A stretch of DNA of 64,000 bases, taken from NCBI GenBank assembly GCA_021927905.1, contig BLLK01000023.1, positions 1,240,001 through 1,304,000 on the forward strand, read 5' to 3'. Positions within the stretch are counted from its first letter, which is position 1; each line of letters opens with the position of its first letter. This DNA comes from Chaetoceros tenuissimus (taxonomy: Eukaryota > Bacillariophyta > Thalassiosirophyceae > Chaetocerotales > Chaetocerotaceae). Below, in pieces: positions 7,462 to 60,797 of this stretch. The notes under the pieces are model-generated. The model was given only the letters and a program-made list of their open reading frames with translations. It was not told the DNA's origin and ran no database searches. A program made the translations under genes and the position numbers.

Positions 7462-7564
7462 AGCTGCTTTGTTGCTTCTTTACTTTAATAAAGGAAGCCC
7501 TCTTTTGCTTCTAGTTGCTTGTAGATTTGATGTGCACTGGCGATTTAGAAATAAATTAAATCAT

Positions 7565-7658
7565 TGAGTTGAGTTGAGTTGAGTTGAGTTGAGTTGAGTT
7601 GAGTTGAGTTGAGTTGAGTTGAGTTGAGTTGAGTTGAGTTGAGTTGAGTTGAGTTGAG
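7565..7658. repeat. Pentanucleotide microsatellite (GAGTT)n
   Basis: About 19 uninterrupted copies of GAGTT. It lies in the spacer between the broken MYND gene (minus) and the broken LRR gene (plus), exactly where the other pairs have the CCAAT/TGACGTCA promoter. Flanking words GATTTGATGTG occur on both sides. Open frames across it (NSTQL repeats) are artefacts. Confidence 0.95.
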
Positions 7659-8990: not shown

Positions 8991-11070
8991 TTATTTCATT
9001 CGTAACTTCATCTTGTCATGTTGGCTCTTTACTTTTTTTAGTAAATCTGCCTCAATTTCGAATTTATTGCACATTTGATCTCCTAGGTTCAAAGGTTCGA
9101 AACAAATATAAAGTGTAATAAATCTATCAACAGATAATTCCTTACTAATCTCTTTCAGCTCATCTTCCGTCAATGCAGTCTCTGTATGCACAAGGTTTTC
9201 TAAACTACTCATCATTGCATCCAACTCGCCTTTTACCAAGGACTTGATATCAAATTCAGAAATCACATCGTCATAGCTTGTTCGAATCTTCTCCTCAAGT
9301 TTAGAAGATATAGTTTCGTTGCCAAACAGCAGATGCTTTCCTCCACATGCCAATTTTGCCAAATTCTCATAAAATACATCCATTGATGAAGGGTCGTTTT
9401 CGTTGTGTTTGTCGCAAGCGTATGTGCAAAGGTAATAATCAATCGATTCACACGGGTGTAGGAAACATTCTTTCTCTATGCCATTGACTTTGATGGGCTT
9501 AGTGTATACTCTATCTTTATACAATGCCCTTCCGACACGCTTCTTCCTTCTTTGGAATGAAGACCATTTGAGACACAAACTTTCGCAGCATTCCTTATGT
9601 TTCCCTTCTCTCCAATGTTTCACTTGACATTCTCGAGAGCAGTAAGTAGCACATTTGCAGCTTCCACAGATTGGTGGATTACCCCATAACCATATCCCTA
9701 ATTTTTTACATTCCCAGCAAGTATTCATTTCTCGATAGAGAGTCAAAAGTGAAACTAATAGCTTTTCCAATTCGTCTTTTGCTTCTTGTGTCCTAGTGGA
9801 TGGATGAGAGAAAAATTTACGGAACAACTTTCCATCCTGGTATTCTGACATATCTAAATCTTTCGCAAATTTCAACATCATATCTTCATCACTCACAAAT
9901 TTCAACATCATATTTTCGAAAATACTGCGAAATTCTGATACAGGCATTTCATAGAAGCGGCATTCATCAAAGCAGGCTTTTCTTGATTCTTTCCATTTCT
10001 CAGCAACTTCTTGGAAAGATTCGTAGATATTAATAGGAGGATCAAAACACACCTTTCGCTTCTCTATTCCCATTTCTACCATTTCTCGTCCAAATGCATC
10101 TTCATCTTCTTCGCTCCCGAAATTTACTTCTTCAATCAATATTTCTGTGCCTTTTGAAAGTTGGAAAAATTTTAGTCCTAAGTCTAAATCATTTATAAAT
10201 TTCTCTCTCAAGCCCATTATCAGCTCTATGGAAAAATCCTCACTGATCACCATCTTGGCCGTATGAGGTGCCATCTTTTCAAAATTCTTTGGAGTTAGGT
10301 CAGCCTTGTCGCTTAGAGACCACATCGTAAAATCTTCCAATATTTCGTCAAGCATTTGATTTATCCCAAGAGGATCTGATTCATCCATGATCTGCTGCAA
10401 TAATGTTTCTTGTGGAGCTTCAATAATGAAAAAGATTTTGAATGAGCTCTAAAATTGCATAGCTAGTTTCACCAACTAACATGTATCTTACCATGGTCCT
10501 TAGGACTTGCCACAGCTTTGACTTTGACCACTTCTTTTTCCTTTAGGTTTCCTGGGGGCACATCGCTATCATAGTCTGAATCATTGTCAGAGTCATCCGA
10601 TGGCGGGGTGTATTTTTCCATTTCACGCTCATATCTCTCGCGATCCTTGGCAGCCATGTCGTCGTACTGTGCTCTTTCATAATCAGTGAGTGCCTTGAAT
10701 TTCTCTGCAATTTTCTTTTGCTTTTCGCCAAAGCTCAAGAAGTCTGGAAATTCTTGTTCGACTACAGGGCGCATAGCAGACGCGTAATAGAGGTATGCAG
10801 AGCATGCTCTTTTTGGTGCGTTTGGGTCCTTCTTTTTTCTTCTTGGCATAACCCTAACCCTAACTGAGTGTTTTATATCATGAAAGATATTGAATAAGCA
10901 TCGAGTTACATGTTCAAAGGTATTGTAAGTTTCGTAGTATACATTTTCTTACCATCCTCAGCACTTGCTCCTTGTTGAGATACGTCTTCCACTCGTCCTC
11001 CTGCGCCTGCTTTCTTTTGGTGGCTTCTTCGTTCCTGTTTGCCAGTACGGCGTTTGCTCTTTTTACCCAT
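8991..11070 (-). CDS. HMG-box/MYND fusion protein (three exons)
   Basis: Exon 1 is 11070-10953 (MGKKSKRRTGKQERRS...QQGASAED, phase 1, donor GTAAG). Exon 2 is 10863-10492 (acceptor CACTCAG, donor GTAAG). Exon 3 is 10417-8991 (acceptor TTGAAG). All junctions are phase 1, giving an open frame of 638 residues. Exon 2 encodes VRVRVMPRRKKKDPNAPKR and a complete HMG-box (AYLYYASAMRPVV ... ALTDYERAQYDDMAAKDR) with an acidic tail. Exon 3 encodes the family body, with a MYND finger at about residues 397-441 (CWEC, CGSCKCATYCSRECQ, HWREGKHKECC). In the sister copy at 5.9-7.5 kb the equivalents of exons 1 and 3 are joined by one intron, so exon 2 is an insertion. HMG-boxes bend DNA, so the fusion would tie MYND to chromatin. 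If exon 2 is instead a separate HMG gene, its frame runs from ATG 10849 to 10469. A short in-frame duplication (MMLKF twice) sits in exon 3. Confidence 0.65.
10848..10863. repeat. Short interstitial telomere-type repeat at HMG-exon edge
   Basis: AACCCTAACCCTAA on the plus strand, i.e. (TTAGGG)2 on the coding strand, directly after the exon-2 acceptor and directly before the HMG ATG. It would be read as VRVRV. The same two-unit repeat marks all three module junctions of the YrdC/EF-hand locus at 54.6, 56.2 and 57.8 kb. Confidence 0.85.
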
Positions 11071-45295: not shown

Positions 45296-48200
45296 ATGAG
45301 CAACATTGCAAATTTTAACATGGATCTGTTCTCGAATGAAGAGACTCCAGATTCGAATTTGAGAAGAAACAGACAAGGGGCACCTGGTGACCATTTTCGG
45401 CCACCTACAAATAGAGTTCCAACAACAACTCAGTCAATTCGTAGTCAAGTAAACTCTCATCGGACCAATCGACATCCAAGCAATCAGAATGCGAATCGAA
45501 TGAATGGCTTTAGTAATTCTTCATCTCATCGCCAACCAAGTGGACAAAGTTCTTTTCAACATCCAAATGCAAAAGGACTTGGTAACAAGCCAAAGGTTGC
45601 ACCCAATCTTCAAGGGACGGGTGATTATAGCAACCAGTATCAATATGATCCATCAACGAATGAGAACAGCAACCAAAATTGGAATGAGCATGATAATCGA
45701 ATGAGTGAAACTACTTTTCATCAAAATCATACACAAGAGCCACAGCAAAGCAATCACGATTCTTCAGTGAACCACTTTAGTCAAAATACGAATGCTACTC
45801 ATCAAACTGCCTTTCAACCTAACCCTTCGAATATGGTGTATCAAATGCAACCTTCACAGCCTCTTGTAATTATTCAGCAACAGCCGCAACAACAAGTGAC
45901 CCAGCTGGATTTGATAAGATCTGAATTGAATAACAGAGATAGACTTGACCAATACAAGCAAATGGAGGAGCTTAGAAAGCAAGTTATGAGTAGCAAACGT
46001 CGAAGACCATCTCCTTCAGCTCGTGAGTCGTCCGCTGATCCTGATGAGTTATCGAGACTCAAATTGGCATTGGAAGCTAAGGATAAAGAAAATAGACTGT
46101 TGAAAATGGAGAAAGATAATGCACTCCGCAACTTGATTACAAATTCCAAAGCCGCCGAAGCTGCGATTGAAAAGGTTGTGAAAGAGCGAGACAGTGAGCT
46201 AGCGAAGGCTGTCGCCAGTGAGCGAGCAAAGGCTGAGGTTGAGATTGGCAAGGCTGTCGCCAGTGAGCGAGCAAAGGCTGAGGTTGAGATTGGCAAGGCT
46301 GTCGCTAGTGAGCGAGCAAAGGCTGAGGTTGAGATTGGCAAGGCTGTCGCCAGTGAGCGAGCAAAGGCTAAGGTCGAGATTGACAAAGTTGTGGAAGAGC
46401 GAGCAAACGCTGTGGAAGAGCGAAACAAGGCTATTGCACTTCGAAACAATGCTATTGAAAATTCTCGTGTCAACAATGCTAGGGTGCAGCATGAGTCCAT
46501 CGAAAGAGTTCAGAACGTCAACAACTCTGCTTCTGGTAAGTAATACTTGAATCGATTCATGATCAAAGTGTAAAAGGATCTAACATCTGCATGTTCTTCC
46601 AAAGCCAATCAATTACAGTCAGAGCTGGATGATTGGCGTAAAAGGTATGAATCACTTCGAGAGGAAAACGAATATAACGAAACACAAATTGCATTGAAGA
46701 ACACTGCACTTTTTAATCTTACTCGAGAGCTGCGCAATAATTCAAGAAATCAAATCAGTCAATCTTCTTCGCAAGGTTCAACAACAAAGCTTTCATCAGA
46801 ACAATACTCTGCTGAGAAATGGTTGCTTGTGAAAATTACTGAACAGTTTCTATTCCATATCCACTACCTAAATATGGCTGTACCTCGTATTTACAATCTA
46901 ATTCCACAAGCGAAACGTGATAAGATGCTTACTGATCCGACGAAAGAATTACCAACAACCTATGATGCAATTACCTTTTTCAAGTTATTCCAAGACAGTG
47001 TCCCTATACTTGCAACGGGACATTGTATCAATGCGCTCAGAGCAAACGATAAGAACAAACCTCGATTCACTGATGAAGAAAAGAATAAGTTTCAAGTTAC
47101 ACGTGCAGGTATGTATCTTGGCTTGACGAAAGCATGCATCCCTGAGATTTTACAGATCTTAGCTAGTAAAAAAGACGAAAAGCAAATTGATGTAGTCATG
47201 GAACTTTTAAGGCAACTATTAGCTGTAAAGGTTTCCCAAGGATTGGTCATCGTCAACTTTGTCCAGAGGACAAGTAACGCTTTCATTGTTTCAGGAGAAC
47301 ATAAGCAGATGCTGAGAAAGTTGGCTGAGACGGTTCTAAATATTGCAAAGAATCCAAATCACAGCAAGACCACTGTCAATCTTGATATGGATGAAGACAG
47401 CGATTCCTACACCTGTTTAACTGAATACAGTGGAAATGTTTCAATCGAAGCTGCTCATGAGAGTTACCTAGCTTCGATTCAACAATTGGTGGAGCATGAA
47501 TATGATTTTGATTCACACCCTGTAATTTCCGATCAGACTGTTGAGAACATGATCGCTTCCGTAAGTTCTAAAAAGTAATTATTTTCAAATACTTTAGATT
47601 CGCTTCAAACGATATTTACCATATCGTCTTTTATCTTCTTTATAGAATAAAATCTCAGCTACTAATAATATCACAAATACGATGGAAAGTTCTCAAAGAG
47701 TTACTCTTGAATATATTGATACTCCCATGGAAACTTCAACGATACAGCTGACTCCTGATGAAGAAGAATCTTCAGTAGCATTCGGGAATATTGCTGTTGA
47801 TGTCGACAAGTTAAAAGTGGAGTTTCTTCAAAGCAAAAACGAGCGTGCAGAGATGCTTAGTTACGCTTTGCGAGTATATGCTGATCAGCCTCCTCTTCAG
47901 ACATTCTTCGAAAACTATTTCAATGCATTATATTTCGAGTGGTATGTTGTGAATGCCAGCCAAGAACTAAGTGGGGTAACGTACATTTCTGACGAAGATA
48001 GGAAATGCATTGCGAGTAAGCTCAGATTGAAACATTTCACTCATCCTGTTGACGTCTTTATGCTATCCGAAGACTTTTTGAACCAATACATCGAAAAACT
48101 AGAACATGTGTACACTACACTTGAAATCAATGGTCCAAACAATGATTCGTCGGTCTACCTTATGCCATCTCAAAAAGAACCACCTGTTGATCAAATAACG

Positions 48201-48860: not shown

Positions 48861-50130
48861 TAACTAATAACTCAAGTTTCTTTGGATTCGTGCTTTGACA
48901 AAGTCTCCCTTACATATTGTCCACATAGTGAGAATTATGAAAAGCCGTGATGTAAAGAATATAATATATATCTTTGCTCATCAGCAGTAATAGTTGCCTG
49001 AACTCTTCCATCTTAGTAATACTTGAAAATCTCGTGAGTGATAAGAAGGAATACCAGACATAACATCTTGAAATCCTTTTCGATTTCTTCAACTTTTCTC
49101 ATTACTATACACTATTTCTTGATATCATCCTCCAGCCTTACATCGATTTCCAAAGTCAACAAACTATATTTTTTATTCAAATTGAAAGGGTACGAAATAT
49201 CGAACGTTTTCGTTCTTGCAAGAGAAGTAGAACCTTGTCTAGGAATTGAAAGCGTCGCTATCCTCAGACATTTCTCAACCATTATCCATTATGTAGACGA
49301 GAGATCATGTTTATGTAGTTAAATAGATGTGGAGATTGGAATCAAAGTAGTGAATGAAATAGATATGAGTGATCTAATTTTCACAAAAGAATAATGAGGT
49401 GCACGGTGTGCTCATTAATCGGTGCTCGAGAATGGATGGCTGTGGACAGTTCGGAAGAGTGATGTTCTAGAAATTGTGGAAAAGAGTGTCTTTATATTTG
49501 TCACTTTTGATGTACGTACGTATATTTATACGACAGGATTTGTATACTTGTTGCCTGGTTTTGTATACTTGTTGCCTGGTTTTGTATACTTGTTGCCTGG
49601 TTTTGTATACTTGTTGCCTGGTTTTGTATACTTGTTGCCTGGTTTTGTATACTTGTTGCCTGGTTTTGTTGATATTTCACAACATGTACGTATTAATCAA
49701 TTATTTTTTTTCACAACTTGTGAGTGAACGATCGAGATCGAGGAGAGCATCTTGTTGTATTTTGGCTATGAAGTAAGCTATTTAAACTAATATCTTATCA
49801 TTCATCCTTGTCTTGAAGAGAACAGTCACTCCCGGTACCGGTACAGATTTACTCCGAAAGAATGGAAAAACGGTGAAATATAGGTGCACCATGCAAAAAC
49901 GATAAAAAGGAGACATAACGAAAAACTTTCTACAACTATTTCATCACATAAAAATATCAAACTATCTTGTGAACAAAACATATTACAACAATGAAATTTA
50001 ACTGGATAGTCAAATGCCCGTGCAAAAATAAATACTGCGAAGTTGGAATCGACCAGTTCTAGGCAATATTGCGATACGGCTTCTTTTGTTTTTTGTATTT
50101 GCACATTAAATAAGGTCACCGGTGGTCCTG
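48861..50130. other. Intergenic region with a minisatellite
   Basis: There is no supported gene. The region contains the 21-bp minisatellite at 49538-49665. Open frames across it consist only of repeated YLLPGFV or LYTCCLV and are not taken as coding. Confidence 0.6.
49538..49665. repeat. 21-bp minisatellite, six copies
   Basis: Unit TTTGTATACTTGTTGCCTGG plus one T, repeated six times with practically no variation, ending in TTTTGTTGATATTTC. GTATAC within the unit is palindromic. Confidence 0.95.
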
Positions 50131-52273: not shown

Positions 52274-55200
52274 TCACCTTGGTATATACATGAGTTCTCT
52301 TTCCTGACGTTCTTTTCGCAATAGCAACTTCTTCTCTTCAGTCTTTTGTTTCAAAGAAACTAAACGGTCATACAGAGACACTGCTTGAGCTACTGTAATC
52401 TTTCCTTGAGGTTTCTGAAACTCGTTACGAAAACTATCACGTCTTGCATTGTGCATCTGACGATTTTTGCCACCTGGATAATAACCATTCTTTTCTTCGG
52501 CAATCTTACGAAGTCTATTCTCTACCTCCAGTCGTTTCATTCTACCTTCCTCTTGGTATGAAGCAGAAACATCATATAGGCGGAGATGTACAGCACCTGG
52601 AGATCTTCCTCTAGATCTTGGTCTTGATGATGATGCAGCTGTAGACTTTGTATGCATGGAATTAGATGCTACTGAGGCACGGGTTTTCGCAGTGGAAATT
52701 CTAATCTTTGTAGGTTGATCCTCAAACTTTGTAGACACTTTCTTGTTTGAAACTGTTTCCACTTCAGTTTGTTTTGGTTCATCCTCATCAATTACAATAT
52801 CAGTTCCTTCATCATTAGCAGTTTCATCAACTTCTTCGCTTTCTTCTTCTTTAACTTCCTCGCTTTCTTCTCCTTCCTCCAAGCTTTCTTTGGGCTCATC
52901 GGACTTTACATCATTCTCTTGTTCCAATTCATTATCATCGGCAGCCATTGCTTGTTCACTTTCCTTAACTTCTTCGCTTTCCTCTGCCACTTCCAAGGAA
53001 CTATTGGACGCATCGGACTTAACATTGTCTTCTACTAAATGTTCAACTTCACTAACTTCATCGACAATTACTTCATCGGTTTCCTCAACTTCTTCGCTTG
53101 CCTCGACAACTTCCAAGCTTTCTTTGGACACATCAGACTTGACATCATCCTCTAGCAGTTGTTCCAATTTATTATCTTCGGCTTTTTCTACCGTCACTTC
53201 AACTTCCTCAGACTCATCTTGTAGAGACTCATCAGCTTGAATAGATTGCAAAAACTCATACAGCTCCATAAAATGGATACTATCATCCTCCACAAGAGTC
53301 TTGTCTATCAAAGCGAATAATACATCAATCTCGACTGAAGAAAATTCATGCGACAAAAGGAAATCACGTAGCTCTTTCTTATCTACGTCGTTGCTGTTGT
53401 CAGTATCAATTTTCTCGAAAAGTCTCATAATAGCTTCTACATCTTGAATATCGTCACCTTCAGATCTAATAGCACTCACAAATTTCGCTGCCAATTTGCT
53501 CATTTGCGGTGAATGACCATCATACGCATATTCAAGGAACTGGAAGAGCTCAATAAAACTAATTTCTTTGTCTCCATTAATATCAATAGCTTTGAACAAG
53601 ACAGATGCATCTTCTTCCGATGTAGATTCTTTATTGGAAGCGTTCACTTTTAGAACAAAGTTGTAGAATTCTTCCTCACACAAACCCTTATCTCCATTCG
53701 TATCAATGCTGTTGAATATATCATAGATATCATTCAAATCAAGATTAGCACTCATCAAGTCCAACGAATCAATTACTCTTTTTGCGAAGCTTACACGAAT
53801 TGCTTTCATTGTATCTTTTTCAATTAAATGTGAGTACATGGTTCCTTTACGCACAGACGTGATACTTTGATGCTTAATTTCAAAGATAGTCAAGTGTCCA
53901 GGATCAATATGTAGAGTCGGCTCAAAACATACACATAGTTTGACACCAAGTCCTTCCGCAAATTCTTTCGCCTCTTCAAAGTCTACAATATTGCCTTGTC
54001 CATGATAGTTCGCACTCGTTGCTAATGCAGTATGATAGTCTTTTCCAAGCAACAACTCTTGATCACTGCAGCCCTCCAATCCAACTTCCAACTCTTTAAA
54101 GTATGATCTGAGACCAGATTCTGCTTCCGGAAATAGAGCACCTTGAACCATACCATCTCGTACAAGAATATCATTTGCACTTGAATTATTGGTCAAAGCT
54201 ACACGTAAATGTGCTTGTTCGAACATTGCAAGTTTCTCAGACGAGTCGAGGGCACTTGGCAAAGAATCTTTATCACACAAGGTGTAAAATTTCTCAATAT
54301 CTCCAATTACAAAGCAAAAGTTTCTCGCGCCATTCGGACGTTTCTTCGCAACTTCCATTTCTTCACATGCAATACGAGTCGGTGCACATATGAGCCAAGC
54401 GTTCAGTCCTTTATGGCAGACAAGGACCATTTCATTTTGCTTCAGCAAAGTGAGAGTCTCTTCAACAGCTTCGACTATGATTAGGAAAAGAGGTGTCAGT
54501 AATGTAAAGTGTAGGAAGAAGTTTATGTGGTGACGACGAAGCAATGTCGTTTACTTGACATATCCGATATGTACTTATTGTAGTTTGGTGCTGCAACCTA
54601 GTACATACCTTGCGATCCATCAACTGCAGCATCAATAACCTTCAACCCTAACCCTAACACTTCTTCGCTTTCCTCGACAACTTCCAAGCTTTCTTTGGAC
54701 ACATCAGACTTGACATCATCCTCTAGGACTTGTTCCAATTTATTATCGTCGGCTTTTTCTACCGTCACTTCAACTTCCTCATCGTCATCCTGTAGAGACT
54801 CATCAGCTTGAATAGATTGCAAAAACTCATACAGCTCCATAAAATGGATACTATCATCCTCAACAAGAGTCTTATCTATCAAAGCGAATAATACATCAAT
54901 CTCGACTGAAGAAAATTCATGCGACAAAAGGAAATCACGTAGCTCTTTCTTATCTACGTCGTTGCTGTTGTCAGTATCAATTTTCTCGAAAAGTCTCATA
55001 ATAGCTTCTACATCTTGAATATCGTCACCTTCAGATCTAATAGCACTCACAAATTTCGCTGCCAATTTGCTCATTTGCGGTGAATGACCATCATACGCAT
55101 ATTCAAGGAACTGGAAGAGCTCAATAAAACTAATTTCTTTGTCTCCATTAATATCAATAGCTTTGAACAAGACAGATGCATCTTCTTCCGATGTAGATTC

Positions 55201-58200
55201 TTTACTGGAAGCGTTCACTTTTAGAACAAAGTTGTAGAATTCTTCCTCACACAAACCCTTATCTCCATTCGTATCAATGCTGTTGAATATATCATAGATA
55301 TCATTCAAATCAAGATTAGCACTCATCAAGTCCAACGAGTCAATTACTCTTTTTGCGAAGCTTACACGAATTGCTTTCATTGTATCTTTTTCAATTAAAT
55401 GTGAGTACATGGTTCCTTTACGCACAGACGTGATACTTTGATGCTTAATTTCAAAGATAGTCAAGTGTCCAGGATCAATATGTAGAGTCGGCTCAAAACA
55501 TACACATAGTTTGACACCAAGTCCTTCCGCAAATTCTTTCGCCTCTTCAAAGTCTACAATATTGCCTTGTCCATGATAGTTCGCACTCGTTGCTAATGCA
55601 GTATGATAGTCTTTTCCAAGCAACAACTCTTGATCACTGCAGCCCTCCAATCCAACTTCCAACTCTTTAAAGTATGATCTGAGACCAGATTCTGCTTCCG
55701 GAAATAGAGCACCTTGAACCATACCATCTCGTACAAGAATATCATTTGCACTTGAATTATTGGTCAAAGCTACACGTAAATGTGCTTGTTCGAACATTGC
55801 AAGTTTCTCAGACGAGTCGAGGGCACTTGGCAAAGAATCTTTATCACACAAGGTGTAAAATTTCTCAATATCTCCAATTACAAAGCAAAAGTTTCTCGCG
55901 CCATTCGGACGTTTCTTCGCAACTTCCATTTCTTCACATGCAATACGAGTCGGTGCACATATGAGCCAAGCGTTCAGTCCTTTATGGCAGACAAGGACCA
56001 TTTCATTTTGCTTCAGCAAAGTGAGAGTCTCTTCAACAGCTTCGACTATGATTAGGAAAAGAGGTGTCAGTAATGTAAAGTGTAGGAAGAAGTTTATGTG
56101 GTGACGACGAAGCAATGTCGTTTACTTGACATATCCGATATGTACTTATTGTAGTTTGGTGCTGCAACCTAGTACATACCTTGCGATCCATCAACTGCAG
56201 CATCAATAACCTTCAACCCTAACCCTAACACTTCTTCGCTTTCCTCGACAACTTCCAAGCTTTCTTTGGACACATCAGACTTGACATCATCCTCTAGGAC
56301 TTGTTCCAATTTATTATCGTCGGCTTTTTCTACCGTCACTTCAACTTCCTCATCGTCATCCTGTAGAGACTCATCAGCTTGAATAGATTGCAAAAACTCA
56401 TACAGCTCCATAAAATGGATACTATCATCCTCAACAAGAGTCTTATCTATCAAAGCGAATAATACATCAATCTCGACTGAAGAAAATTCATGCGACAAAA
56501 GGAAATCACGTAGCTCTTTCTTATCTACGTCGTTGCTGTTGTCAGTATCAATTTTCTCGAAAAGTCTCATAATAGCTTCTACATCTTGAATATCGTCACC
56601 TTCAGATCTAATAGCACTCACAAATTTCGCTGCCAATTTGCTCATTTGCGGTGAATGACCATCATACGCATATTCAAGGAACTGGAAGAGCTCAATAAAA
56701 CTAATTTCTTTGTCTCCATTAATATCAATAGCTTTGAACAAGACAGATGCATCTTCTTCCGATGTAGATTCTTTACTGGAAGCGTTCACTTTTAGAACAA
56801 AGTTGTAGAATTCTTCCTCACACAAACCCTTATCTCCATTCGTATCAATGCTGTTGAATATATCATAGATATCATTCAAATCAAGATTAGCACTCATCAA
56901 GTCCAACGAGTCAATTACTCTTTTTGCGAAGCTTACACGAATTGCTTTCATTGTATCTTTTTCAATTAAATGTGAGTACATGGTTCCTTTACGCACAGAC
57001 GTGATACTTTGATGCTTAATTTCAAAGATAGTCAAGTGTCCAGGATCAATATGTAGAGTCGGCTCAAAACATACACATAGTTTGACACCAAGTCCTTCCG
57101 CAAATTCTTTCGCCTCTTCAAAGTCTACAATATTGCCTTGTCCATGATAGTTCGCACTCGTTGCTAATGCAGTATGATAGTCTTTTCCAAGCAACAACTC
57201 TTGATCACTGCAGCCCTCCAATCCAACTTCCAACTCTTTAAAGTATGATCTGAGACCAGATTCTGCTTCCGGAAATAGAGCACCTTGAACCATACCATCT
57301 CGTACAAGAATATCATTTGCACTTGAATTATTGGTCAAAGCTACACGTAAATGTGCTTGTTCGAACATTGCAAGTTTCTCAGACGAGTCGAGGGCACTTG
57401 GCAAAGAATCTTTATCACACAAGGTGTAAAATCTCTCAATATCTCCAATTACAAAGCAAAAGTTTCTCGCGCCATTCGGACGTTTCTTCGCAACTTCCAT
57501 TTCTTCACATGCAATACGAGTCGGTGCACATATGAGCCAAGCGTTCAGTCCTTTATGGCAGACAAGGACCATTTCATTTTGCTTCAGCAAAGTGAGAGTC
57601 TCTTCAACAGCTTCGACTATGATTAGGAAAAGAGGTGTCAGTAATGTAAAGTGTAGGAAGAAGTTTATGTGGTGACGACGAAGCAATGTCGTTTACTTGA
57701 CATATCCGATATGTACTTATTGTAGTTTGGTGCTGCAACCTAGTACATACCTTGCGATCCATCAACTGCAGCATCAATAACCTTCAACCCTAACCCTAAC
57801 ACTTCTTCGCTTTCCTCGACAACTTCCAAGCTTTCTTTGGACACATTGGACTTGACATCATCCTCTAGGACTTGTTCCAATTTATTATCGTCGGCTTTTT
57901 CTACCGTCACTTCAACTTCCTCATCGTCATCCTGTAGAGACTCATCAGCTTGAATAGATTGCAAAAACTCATACAGCTCCATAAAATGGATACTATCATC
58001 CTCCACAAGAGTCTTATCTATCAAAGCGAATAATACATCAATCTCGACTGAAGAAAATTCATGCGACAAAAGGAAATCACGTAGCTCTTTCTTATCTACG
58101 TCGTTGCTGTTGTCAGTATCAATTTTCTCGAAAAGTCTCATAATAGCTTCTACATCTTGAATATCGTCACCTTCAGATCTAATAGCACTCACAAATTTCG

Positions 58201-59358
58201 CTGCCAATTTGCTCATTTGCGGTGAATGACCATCATACGCATATTCAAGGAACTGGAAGAGCTCAATAAAACTAATTTCTTTGTCTCCATTAATATCAAT
58301 AGCTTTGAACAAGACAGATGCATCTTCTTCCGATGTAGATTCTTTACTGGAAGCGTTCACTTTTAGAACAAAGTTGTAGAATTCTTCCTCACACAAACCC
58401 TTATCTCCATTCGTATCAATGCTGTTGAATATATCATAGATATCATTCAAATCAAGATTAGCACTCATCAAGTCCAACGAGTCAATTACTCTTTTTGCGA
58501 AGCTTACACGAATTGCTTTCATTGTATCTTTTTCAATTAAATGTGAGTACATGGTTCCTTTACGCACAGACGTGATACTTTGATGCTTAATTTCAAAGAT
58601 AGTCAAGTGTCCAGGATCAATATGTAGAGTCGGCTCAAAACATACACATAGTTTGACACCAAGTCCTTCCGCAAATTCTTTCGCCTCTTCAAAGTCTACA
58701 ATATTGCCTTGTCCATGATAGTTCGCACTCGTTGCTAATGCAGTATGATAGTCTTTTCCAAGCAACAACTCTTGATCACTGCAGCCCTCCAATCCAACTT
58801 CCAACTCTTTAAAGTATGATCTGAGACCAGATTCTGCTTCCGGAAATAGAGCACCTTGAACCATACCATCTCGTACAAGAATATCATTTGCACTTGAATT
58901 ATTGGTCAAAGCTACACGTAAATGTGCTTGTTCGAACATTGCAAGTTTCTCAGACGAGTCGAGGGCACTTGGCAAAGAATCTTTATCACACAAGGTGTAA
59001 AATTTCTCAATATCTCCAATTACAAAGCAAAAGTTTCTCGCGCCATTCGGACGTTTCTTCGCAACTTCCATTTCTTCACATGCAATACGAGTCGGTGCAC
59101 ATATGAGCCAAGCGTTCAGTCCTTTATGGCAGACAAGGACCATTTCATTTTGCTTCAGCAAAGTGAGAGTCTCTTCAACAGCTTCGACTATGATTAGGAA
59201 AAGAGGTGTCAGTAATGTAAAGTGTAGGAAGAAGTTTATGTGGTGACGACGAAGCAATGTCGTTTACTTGACATATCCGATATGTACTTATTGTAGTTTG
59301 GTGCTGCAACCTAGTACATACCTTGCGATCCATCAACTGCAGCATCAATAACCTTCAT
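52274..59358 (-). CDS. Four-module YrdC/Sua5-like and EF-hand polyprotein (five exons)
   Basis: Exon 1 is 59358-59322 (MKVIDAAVDGSQ); exons 2-4 are 59187-57751, 57616-56180 and 56045-54609 (1,437 nt each); exon 5 is 54474-52274. The four introns are 134 nt each (donor CAAG/GTATGT, acceptor CATAG), all phase 1, and the joined frame is open for 2,182 residues. Each module begins VEAVEETLTLLKQNEMVLVC, with YrdC/Sua5 traits: the KKRPNGARNFCFVIGDIEKF stretch, ALATSANYHGQG (the TSAN signature) and TSVRKGTMYS. Three good EF loops (DTNGDKGLCEEE, DINGDKEISFIE, DTDNSNDVDKKE) and one degenerate loop follow. YrdC proteins make threonylcarbamoyl-AMP for tRNA t6A, but the usual PTDTVYGL box is replaced here, so activity is doubtful. 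Exon 5 adds a repetitive acidic region and a basic tail. The alternative is four separate genes, each cut off by intron read-through; the hydrophobic MLRRHH-type N-termini then seen are intron sequence starting from TTG. Confidence 0.6.
54644..54658. repeat. Interstitial telomere-type repeat, module junction 3/4
   Basis: AACCCTAACCCTAAC, i.e. (TTAGGG)2 on the coding strand, between EESEEV and KVIDAAVDGSQ. It is read as LGLGL, and the ATG of the original exon 1 has become TTG. Confidence 0.9.
56215..56229. repeat. Interstitial telomere-type repeat, module junction 2/3
   Basis: Identical in sequence and context to the copy at 54644, one 1,571-bp unit away. Confidence 0.9.
57786..57800. repeat. 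Interstitial telomere-type repeat, module junction 1/2
   Basis: Identical in sequence and context to the copies at 54644 and 56215. The upstream end of the array (59356) instead has the original ATGAAGG without telomere repeats. Confidence 0.9.
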
Positions 59359-60797
59359 TTGTTATATGGCTGTGCTCAATTCTATATGCTGTGCAACTAC
59401 CTGCTTCAGTGTGTTAGCTACGGTGTTGTTATTAATGAAAGCAAAATCGGGGCAGACAGGCGGACGACAGCTCCCTCTCACATTCATCCACATTTTCTTC
59501 ACAACGCACAAATATTTCAAATACGTCATTACACTATGAGACGAAATTTGGTGTCATTGCTCTCGTCAAAAGTCAATGATAAGATGTCATGTTCTAAATC
59601 AGTCTAATTTAAACGCTTTCTTACTCTACAGGAACCCGAAACTTTTTCTTTTTTCTTCTTTCACAAACAACACCGTCGTTGATGATTCATGACTCCACTA
59701 GAGTTGCAATTATTATTTATTATAATTTCAGATCTCAATCCAGTAGATAACTTTCAAATAGCTTCAAGTTTACAGGCCACAACTAGCTAGCTTTGAACAA
59801 CATCCCCAAAAAGGCGGCGAAGAAGATATCTAATTCAATAGCTTTTGCCGGGGTAAAAATAGTGGCAAATAGTAGACGGCTGTCAAAAATAACTGGCAAG
59901 GGACTCTGTACCACGAGTAAGTTTCAAATAGCTAGCTTCAAGTTTACAGGCCACAACTAGCTAGCTTTGAACAACATCCCCAAAAAGGCGGCGAACACGG
60001 ACGCTAAGAATTGGGGGGAAGCTACATCTCCGTAGAGACGTACAAGACATACCAGAATAAATGGCCAATTGCTTCATAGCCACCAATTTTTGCACGATGT
60101 GAAAAATACAAGATGGGACTCAACTCGTTCAACTCAACGAGAAAAAGTTAATTACCTCATAAAATTTGATAGATGCGATTGTACAACTCGTCGGGAAAGT
60201 GAAATCCAGCGACCCCGACTTACACAAGTCTTTATCAGTACCCTATAAGTATATATCTAAGTCGGGGTCGCTGGATATTGACTATAAGAAATGTTATGGC
60301 TCACTATGATAGCTACTGAACGAAGTGAGAAGGGTGACAGAATTCGGTCGTTCAAGCTGTATGTATTGAAACTTCAATAGAATTGACAAATACAGGTTCC
60401 TAATGATCATGTCGGGGTTTTCCATTGCTTATATGATTACAGTTTTAGTAATGGGTAGTAGAAAAGCAAATATGATTACTACATGTTCGATGATGCATCA
60501 AGTCATCACCATAGGATAGGAAACTATTACCTTGTGCTGTGATTCCATGAAGCTATGTAGAAACTGCAGAAACAAAGCAAACCTATATTTTTCACTATTG
60601 AGCAGTGATCTGATACAGCTTGATTAGCTAGGAGATTTTCAATTAAGAAGCAAGAGCCTGATGATAAGAAGAACATAGATGAAACGAGGAGCGATGATAT
60701 GCAACGAAACACCAAAGCAGAGCAGAGACATGATTCACTAGATTGTATTCCTAGTCTTTATTCATAGATATGACTTTCTATATCAATTATAGCATCT
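59359..60797. other. Intergenic region with direct and inverted repeats
   Basis: No gene is supported. A direct repeat of about 70 bp lies at 59753-59822 and 59922-59995 (TTTCAAATAGCT...AAAAAGGCGGCGAA), with a 4-bp AGCT difference. A strong inverted repeat lies at 60204-60276 (separate entry). Confidence 0.6.
60204..60276. repeat. Perfect 19-bp inverted repeat (hairpin)
   Basis: ATCCAGCGACCCCGACTTA at 60204-60222 is the exact reverse complement of 60258-60276, with a 35-nt AT-rich loop. The arms are much more GC-rich than the surroundings. It could be a transcribed hairpin RNA, a terminator-like structure, or the ends of a tiny non-autonomous element. Confidence 0.9.

Follow-up and report, generated by a model that had tools for sequence, protein, structure and literature searches.

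Telomeric repeats join the four near-identical units of a giant EF-hand gene in the diatom Chaetoceros tenuissimus

The multi-domain (polymeric) globins of Branchipolynoe and Barbatia arose from a single-domain gene that was duplicated head to tail within one frame. Polymeric globins also occur in Artemia and in cladocerans, and their genes keep introns at the module joins; we know of no report of a polymeric-globin junction that is a telomeric repeat. In the excerpted account of the Barbatia protein, the linker between domains is short (PMC4503718). Here, we describe a gene of Chaetoceros tenuissimus at positions 52274-59358, minus strand, of a 64,000-nucleotide stretch of contig BLLK01000023.1 (hereafter the window), which holds tandem units in one open frame and is in this sense an internally duplicated, polymeric gene. 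It differs from the polymeric globins, whose units are more diverged, in having four near-identical units of several domains each. The sequence at the joins is telomeric, a sign that the giant gene may be the product of faulty repair at a DNA break.

Interstitial telomeric sequences of primates, rodents and horse, connected with break repair, are likewise short perfect (TTAGGG)n tracts at internal sites. According to excerpts of a human and horse survey, human interstitial repeats are absent from exons, the reason given being that either orientation would bring stops; the same excerpts mention short direct target duplications and complex inverted duplications (PMC7215372). By comparison with what those excerpts describe, the repeat in the diatom gene is exonic, is read in an open frame (TTA GGG) and stands at the join of a large tandem duplication, which runs counter to their stated expectation that exons do not tolerate telomeric insertions. 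Among open-access titles and the opening lines of abstracts, we found none that dealt with a telomeric repeat where tandem duplicates meet in coding sequence, with diatom genes bearing telomeric insertions or with a protein that combines YrdC and EF-hands. That genes can grow by duplicating in tandem and in frame is already known, and the telomeric coding joint is the unusual and apparently new part.

Four units in one frame and the sequence at their joins

A 1,571-bp unit is present four times on the minus strand, the exon-1 sequence that follows the start codon beginning at 59355, 57784, 56213 and 54642 (plus-strand coordinates), with a spacing of exactly 1571 in all three intervals. Spliced exons of 37, 1437, 1437, 1437 and 2201 nucleotides (nt) encode 2,182 codons and a stop, with no internal stops. 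The four introns, 134 nt each, have a common donor (GTATGT) and acceptor (CATAG), and the exon joins are in phase 1 because exon 1 has 37 nt. A preliminary description, made by a model from the letters alone, had reported four 1,571-bp units in one frame of 2,182 residues, with phase-1 joins throughout and four 134-nt introns sharing donor and acceptor; its coordinates and counts are correct, and our recomputation agrees. Read through in the exon-1 frame, the intron reaches a stop after a few codons (GMY*), so the giant frame needs splicing. The parts of the gene are as follows.

59322..59358, minus strand: exon 1 of copy 1, 37 nt, MKVIDAAVDGSQ, with the ATG at 59358-59356; ATG and donor recur in the paralogue L039
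59188..59321, minus strand: intron 1, 134 nt, phase 1
57751..59187, minus strand: exon 2, 1437 nt, with the body of copy 1, the telomeric linker and the exon-1 part of copy 2
57786..57800, minus strand: junction of copies 1 and 2, GTTAGGGTTAGGGTT, within V-LGLGL-K, in place of the copy-2 start codon
57617..57750, minus strand: intron 2, identical to intron 1
56180..57616, minus strand: exon 3, 1437 nt, with the body of copy 2, the telomeric linker and the exon-1 part of copy 3
56215..56229, minus strand: junction of copies 2 and 3, GTTAGGGTTAGGGTT
56046..56179, minus strand: intron 3, 134 nt
54609..56045, minus strand: exon 4, 1437 nt, with the body of copy 3, the telomeric linker and the exon-1 part of copy 4
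54644..54658, minus strand: junction of copies 3 and 4, GTTAGGGTTAGGGTT
54475..54608, minus strand: intron 4, 134 nt
52274..54474, minus strand: exon 5, 2201 nt, with the body of copy 4, the full acidic tail and the basic C-terminus; stop at 52274-52276
52847..53154, minus strand: degenerate repeats of about 120 bp within the copy-4 acidic tail; copies 1-3 end where this region begins

An identical 15-nt sequence, equal to two and a half of the organism's telomere repeats, stands at each of the three internal joins and is translated in frame as LGLGL. The telomere repeat of C. tenuissimus is given as TTAGGG in the genome report (PMC8613185), and we saw terminal TTAGGG arrays in the assembly at the start of contig C13 and the end of contig C27. 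At neither outer end of the array is there a telomeric repeat: ...AACAAATGAAGG leads into copy 1, and copy 4 runs on as ...GAAGAAGTTGAGG. Within the window, (TTAGGG)2 with at most one mismatch has four matches, where shuffled sequence would be expected to give 0.11; the junctions account for three of the four. As far as the assembly goes, the telomeric joint is genuine and beyond chance, and as the organism's telomere repeat at a non-terminal site it is an interstitial telomeric sequence.

The arrangement of N copies with N-1 repeats indicates that the repeat came with the new joint and was no part of the ancestral gene, and its absence before copy 1 and after copy 4 that telomeric sequence entered at the breakpoint. 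A comparison for insertion at a break is provided, within this genome only, by the array ends and by the stretches fetched around three paralogous loci (L039, L040 and L041), none of which contains (TTAGGG)2. The join also removes the A of the ATG, so that the internal units, which open with TTG-AAG, have no ATG start of their own there.

Relatives, divergence and the origin of the array

Elsewhere in the genome the unit has an intact single-unit relative, L041 (contig C44), at 52-57% identity; a closer one, L039 (contig C17), at 72-81% in the N-terminal and EF-hand parts and lower in the tail, which is disrupted by a stop and a change of frame; and a decayed one, L040. The giant gene shares its intron position and phase and its starting ATG with L039, and the C-terminus encoded by exon 5 is conserved in L039 and L041. 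Compared with L039, the unit has a dN of about 0.10 and a dS of about 0.45 over 196 codons, and 0.13 and 1.06 over 118 codons. With dN well below dS, the unit appears to have been selected as a protein.

Direct homologues of the unit were found neither at E <= 0.001 (8000 candidates scored) nor at E <= 1 (1668 candidates), and three database proteins (P0001-P0003) were reached only by a profile that included L041. P0001 and P0002 are predicted single-unit proteins close to L041, the latter without the N-terminus; they come from contigs of 6,053 and 3,915 bp and, given these short contigs, may be incomplete. Their XopAW label was rejected, as the NCBIfam matches lie far under the cut-off and over the EF-hands. 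A 5.8-billion-protein collection, searched with lengths of about 227-1303 amino acids (aa) admitted, returned a 254-aa protein of the same contig and none of the giant locus, which agrees, indirectly, with an annotated model that is larger or absent.

Copies 1-3 differ from one another at 1 to 4 positions, and the first 351 nt are identical across all four copies. Variants in the unit are confined to copy 2 at 351 and to copy 1 at 1507-1508, and are shared by copies 2 and 3 at 1351. Between copies 3 and 4, four differences fall within the first ~1,420 nt and eight within the 155 nt that precede the junction. We considered that copies 1-3 took their 3' differences from a neighbouring tail repeat and rejected this, as the copy-4 position matches best even so (147/155), against about 80% for the other tail repeats. 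An old duplication homogenised later is disfavoured because the 5' edge of copy 1 lacks the expected divergence. The first joint would instead have arisen between two haplotypes with different versions of the fast-evolving acidic tail, with unequal exchange then raising the number to four; the organism is diploid with a genome heterozygosity of 1.56% (PMC8613185). Consensus smoothing in the assembly is a possible cause of part of the near-identity.

The preliminary description interpreted the gene as an in-frame, intron-containing quadruplication that exon phase had made tolerable and possibly selectable, as a putative calcium-buffering or scaffold protein. The quadruplication is supported. 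The telomeric joins had been overlooked, and the telomeric nature of every junction shifts the explanation from phase tolerance alone to probable break repair with capture of telomere repeats. Judging from sequence, an origin in telomeric break repair, growth by unequal exchange and a single transcribed polyprotein make up the account that we favour and hold to be probable, and we infer the repair mechanism, the order of events, transcription and protein function as follows. The ancestor would have been a single-unit diatom gene with a degenerate YrdC-like domain, three canonical EF-hands, an acidic tail and a basic C-terminus. A break within the acidic tail would have left an end that was joined at the start codon of a second gene copy, on the sister chromatid or the homologue, and either telomerase or captured telomeric DNA would have supplied the 15 nt of telomeric repeat between the two. 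Overall the reading frame would have been kept, the open TTA-GGG frame giving LGLGL, and the downstream start codon would have been lost. Unequal exchange between near-identical units may then have raised their number to four, the telomeric junction being copied each time. Transcription would proceed from a single promoter ahead of copy 1, the four identical introns would be spliced out, and the product would be one 2,182-residue protein with some 12 calcium-binding loops, a putative multivalent calcium binder. If so, telomeric break repair enlarged a gene instead of destroying one and left a readable scar at every module join.

Several observations weigh against this account. A simple recent duplication fails to explain the cluster of eight differences in the last 155 nt of copies 3 and 4. 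As a yardstick for selection L039 is imperfect, being disrupted, and against the intact L041 dS is saturated and yields no ratio. The telomeric repeat lies inside the unit in two other tandem arrays of the genome, L042 (363 bp) and L043 (520-523 bp), and inside one of two ~100-bp copies at L146. The unit number could also be wrong, since this is a HaploMerger2-merged hybrid assembly of a 1.56% heterozygous diploid (Illumina and MinION reads, MaSuRCA and then HaploMerger2; PMC8613185). The genome might have one or two units, with the others added during assembly or produced by stringing alleles together, and the 1-4 nt that separate copies 1-3 fit such an expansion. A telomeric join is hardly something that an assembler would create, so that at least one genuine duplicate junction is to be expected, and the private and shared variants at 351, 1351 and 1507-1508 differ among the copies; we consider an expansion of this kind unlikely. 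A real array, transcribed or not, could still be a young expansion without function: the unit at one or other end would be the only one of importance, and the frame would have stayed open by luck in the short time since the expansion. Of the three further relatives in the genome, L039 and L040 are disrupted, and the few differences between copies imply little time for stops to arise; set against this, the frame is maintained across three joins and four introns and dN is well below dS relative to L039, which leaves this explanation doubtful, if worth serious attention.

The ancestral gene might, alternatively, have carried the telomeric repeat at one of its ends beforehand, with the duplication then arising through the homology that the repeat offered. 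A repeat does adjoin an exon edge in the HMG-box gene of the window (10850-10863), and the two arrays just mentioned hold repeats within their units:

L042, 2274-3221: tandem array, 363-bp unit, (TTAGGG)2 inside the unit, three occurrences
L043, 1894-3664: tandem array, 520-523-bp unit, (TTAGGG)2 inside the unit, three occurrences

The repeat is missing, though, from the outer 5' end of copy 1, from the end of copy 4 and from the fetched L039, L040 and L041 stretches, which makes prior presence a poor candidate. Each unit does keep the whole intron and domain set that four independent genes would be expected to have; the internal units, however, have TTG for ATG, lack separate 5' flanks and run into the following unit without a stop, which makes that reading very improbable, and the TTG in place of ATG favours the single polyprotein.

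EF-hands and a degenerate N-terminal domain

Scanned against Pfam, one unit matches EF-hand_7 at 44.8 bits (cut-off 30) and EF-hand_6 at 41.3 bits (cut-off 25), the latter in three stretches. The whole protein is thereby predicted to carry about 12 EF loops, three per unit, in line with the roughly 12 canonical loops counted in the preliminary description. In its three loops over curated cut-offs the unit resembles EF-hand calcium-binding proteins, from which it differs in being a multi-domain unit repeated fourfold in one frame. These domains prompt the guess that the giant protein acts as a multivalent calcium binder.

The preliminary description also assigned four YrdC-like domains, and this assignment is not supported in that form: of the two families that it named, EF-hand_7 was found and Sua5_yciO_yrdC (PF01300) was not. 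PF01300 does not match at E up to 10, no Pfam family is assigned to the N-terminal ~240 residues, and a genome-wide PF01300 search located two ordinary loci elsewhere, the giant gene not among them. The NCBIfam model TIGR00057 reaches 16.4 bits on the unit (E 0.004), far below its cut-off of 123.2, and has no match in two paralogue pieces or in P0001 and P0002. PTxTxYGL, which we take to be the substrate-site motif of Sua5/YrdC/TsaC, is replaced by HKGLNAWL, while the KxRP, SAN, G..T and RxG positions are collinear with those proteins.

A first scan of genome contigs for Sua5 relatives gave no confirmed relative; a second found 497, of which the best 80 were kept, with 80 used for hhalign and 36 for the structure alignment. 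Against Sua5, hhalign scored 22.8 with the first profile (best of 100 column shuffles, 23.2) and 23.0 after two relatives were added and the gap rule changed (best of 100 shuffles, 19.9), at a reported probability of 3.5-3.6%; in hmmsearch with the Sua5 profile, all three members fell under the inclusion threshold. No sequence relative of the N-terminal domain was found in the PDB. Its single-sequence AlphaFold model was useless (pLDDT 36); a model built on an alignment with the 36 Sua5 sequences reached pLDDT 65.7 and matched Sua5/TsaC structures best, a result biased by that alignment. Taken with the collinear positions, the domain is probably a degenerate YrdC-type fold, and it is unlikely to make threonylcarbamoyl-AMP; the YrdC label denotes a weak, remote resemblance.

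Telomeric repeats elsewhere in the genome

We searched the genome (41.03 Mb in 68 contigs) for the 14-mer TTAGGGTTAGGGTT, (TTAGGG)2TT, and obtained 52 + 112 matches, against 1 + 0 for the reversed pattern. The repeat has at least 62 array starts (32 + 30), a few of them at contig ends, a count that is a lower bound since further repeats preceded by GG are possible. A genome of this kind is a place where insertion, frame and selection can be tested directly. We inspected 39 interior loci, 37 fetched and two in the window; the terminal or subtelomeric loci L014, L024, L050, L057 and L155, repeat arrays beside satellite repeats, were excluded, and 17 of the 62 array starts lie outside the fetched set, two of these at the very start of contig C28. 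Many loci were viewed with 0.5-1.5 kb per side, and L006 with less on one side, so a single large duplication could escape notice. Among the 39, the pattern of N copies and N-1 repeats is clean at the giant gene only; with L042, L043 and L146 differing, a general mechanism is not supported, and we rejected the idea that telomeric repeats mark tandem-duplication joins throughout the genome.

In either orientation, one of the three frames of TTAGGG contains a stop and two are open. At 10 of the 37 fetched loci and at both window loci the repeat lies, in one frame or another, inside a run of 120 or more codons free of stops, a loose test of which some positives will be chance. Pfam was run on six repeat-bearing proteins (from five of these ten fetched loci and the HMG-box gene), and five of the six have a domain in the same frame as the repeat: ankyrin-TIR, PAP_fibrillin, SUMO-like Rad60-SLD, CRAL_TRIO and HMG box; the protein of L151 has no Pfam domain. 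In the HMG-box gene (ATG at 11070), (TTAGGG)2 at window positions 10850-10863, minus strand, begins exactly at the predicted splice acceptor and reads VRVRV in frame, about ten residues ahead of the box. The repeat reads LGLGFG in the ankyrin-TIR protein and, at L143, PNPK shortly ahead of the SUMO-like domain; in the PAP_fibrillin protein it falls within the domain and may be ordinary coding sequence. Telomeric insertion into these other coding genes would be one way to account for such in-frame repeats. We propose tentatively, and with less than even confidence, that telomeric repeats added at breaks feed new coding sequence in this genome, giving in-frame linkers in several genes (LGLGL, VRVRV, LGLGFG, PNPK), and that in the giant gene such a repeat joined two copies and seeded a self-expanding polyprotein.

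Other arrangements of the repeat were seen along the way. Two stretches 5.9 kb apart on contig C48 (L138:377-636 and L139:408-667) have two telomeric repeats each, 246 bp apart, and inverted CCCTAA copies adjoin some of them. The same sequence surrounds the telomeric repeat at L005 (contig C10) and L148 (contig C42), which are possibly an uncollapsed haplotype or a recent duplicate; the C10 stretch lies in the ankyrin-TIR frame. At the end of contig C27 (L057:5545-9963), a long satellite array of ~193 bp, with self-matches at 22 successive offsets, is followed by the terminal TTAGGG array.

Upstream of the giant gene, a perfect 63-nt direct repeat occurs twice, 174 nt apart (59759-59995), and an inverted repeat at 60204-60276, with 32-nt arms that are 81% complementary, a 9-nt loop and well-paired outer ends, is a small hairpin or MITE-like piece. 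Other tandem repeats of the window lie at 49539-49669 (21 bp x 6.2, 100% matches), at 46205-46386 (45 bp x 4, 96%) and at 7564-7658 (TTGAG x 19, 100%).

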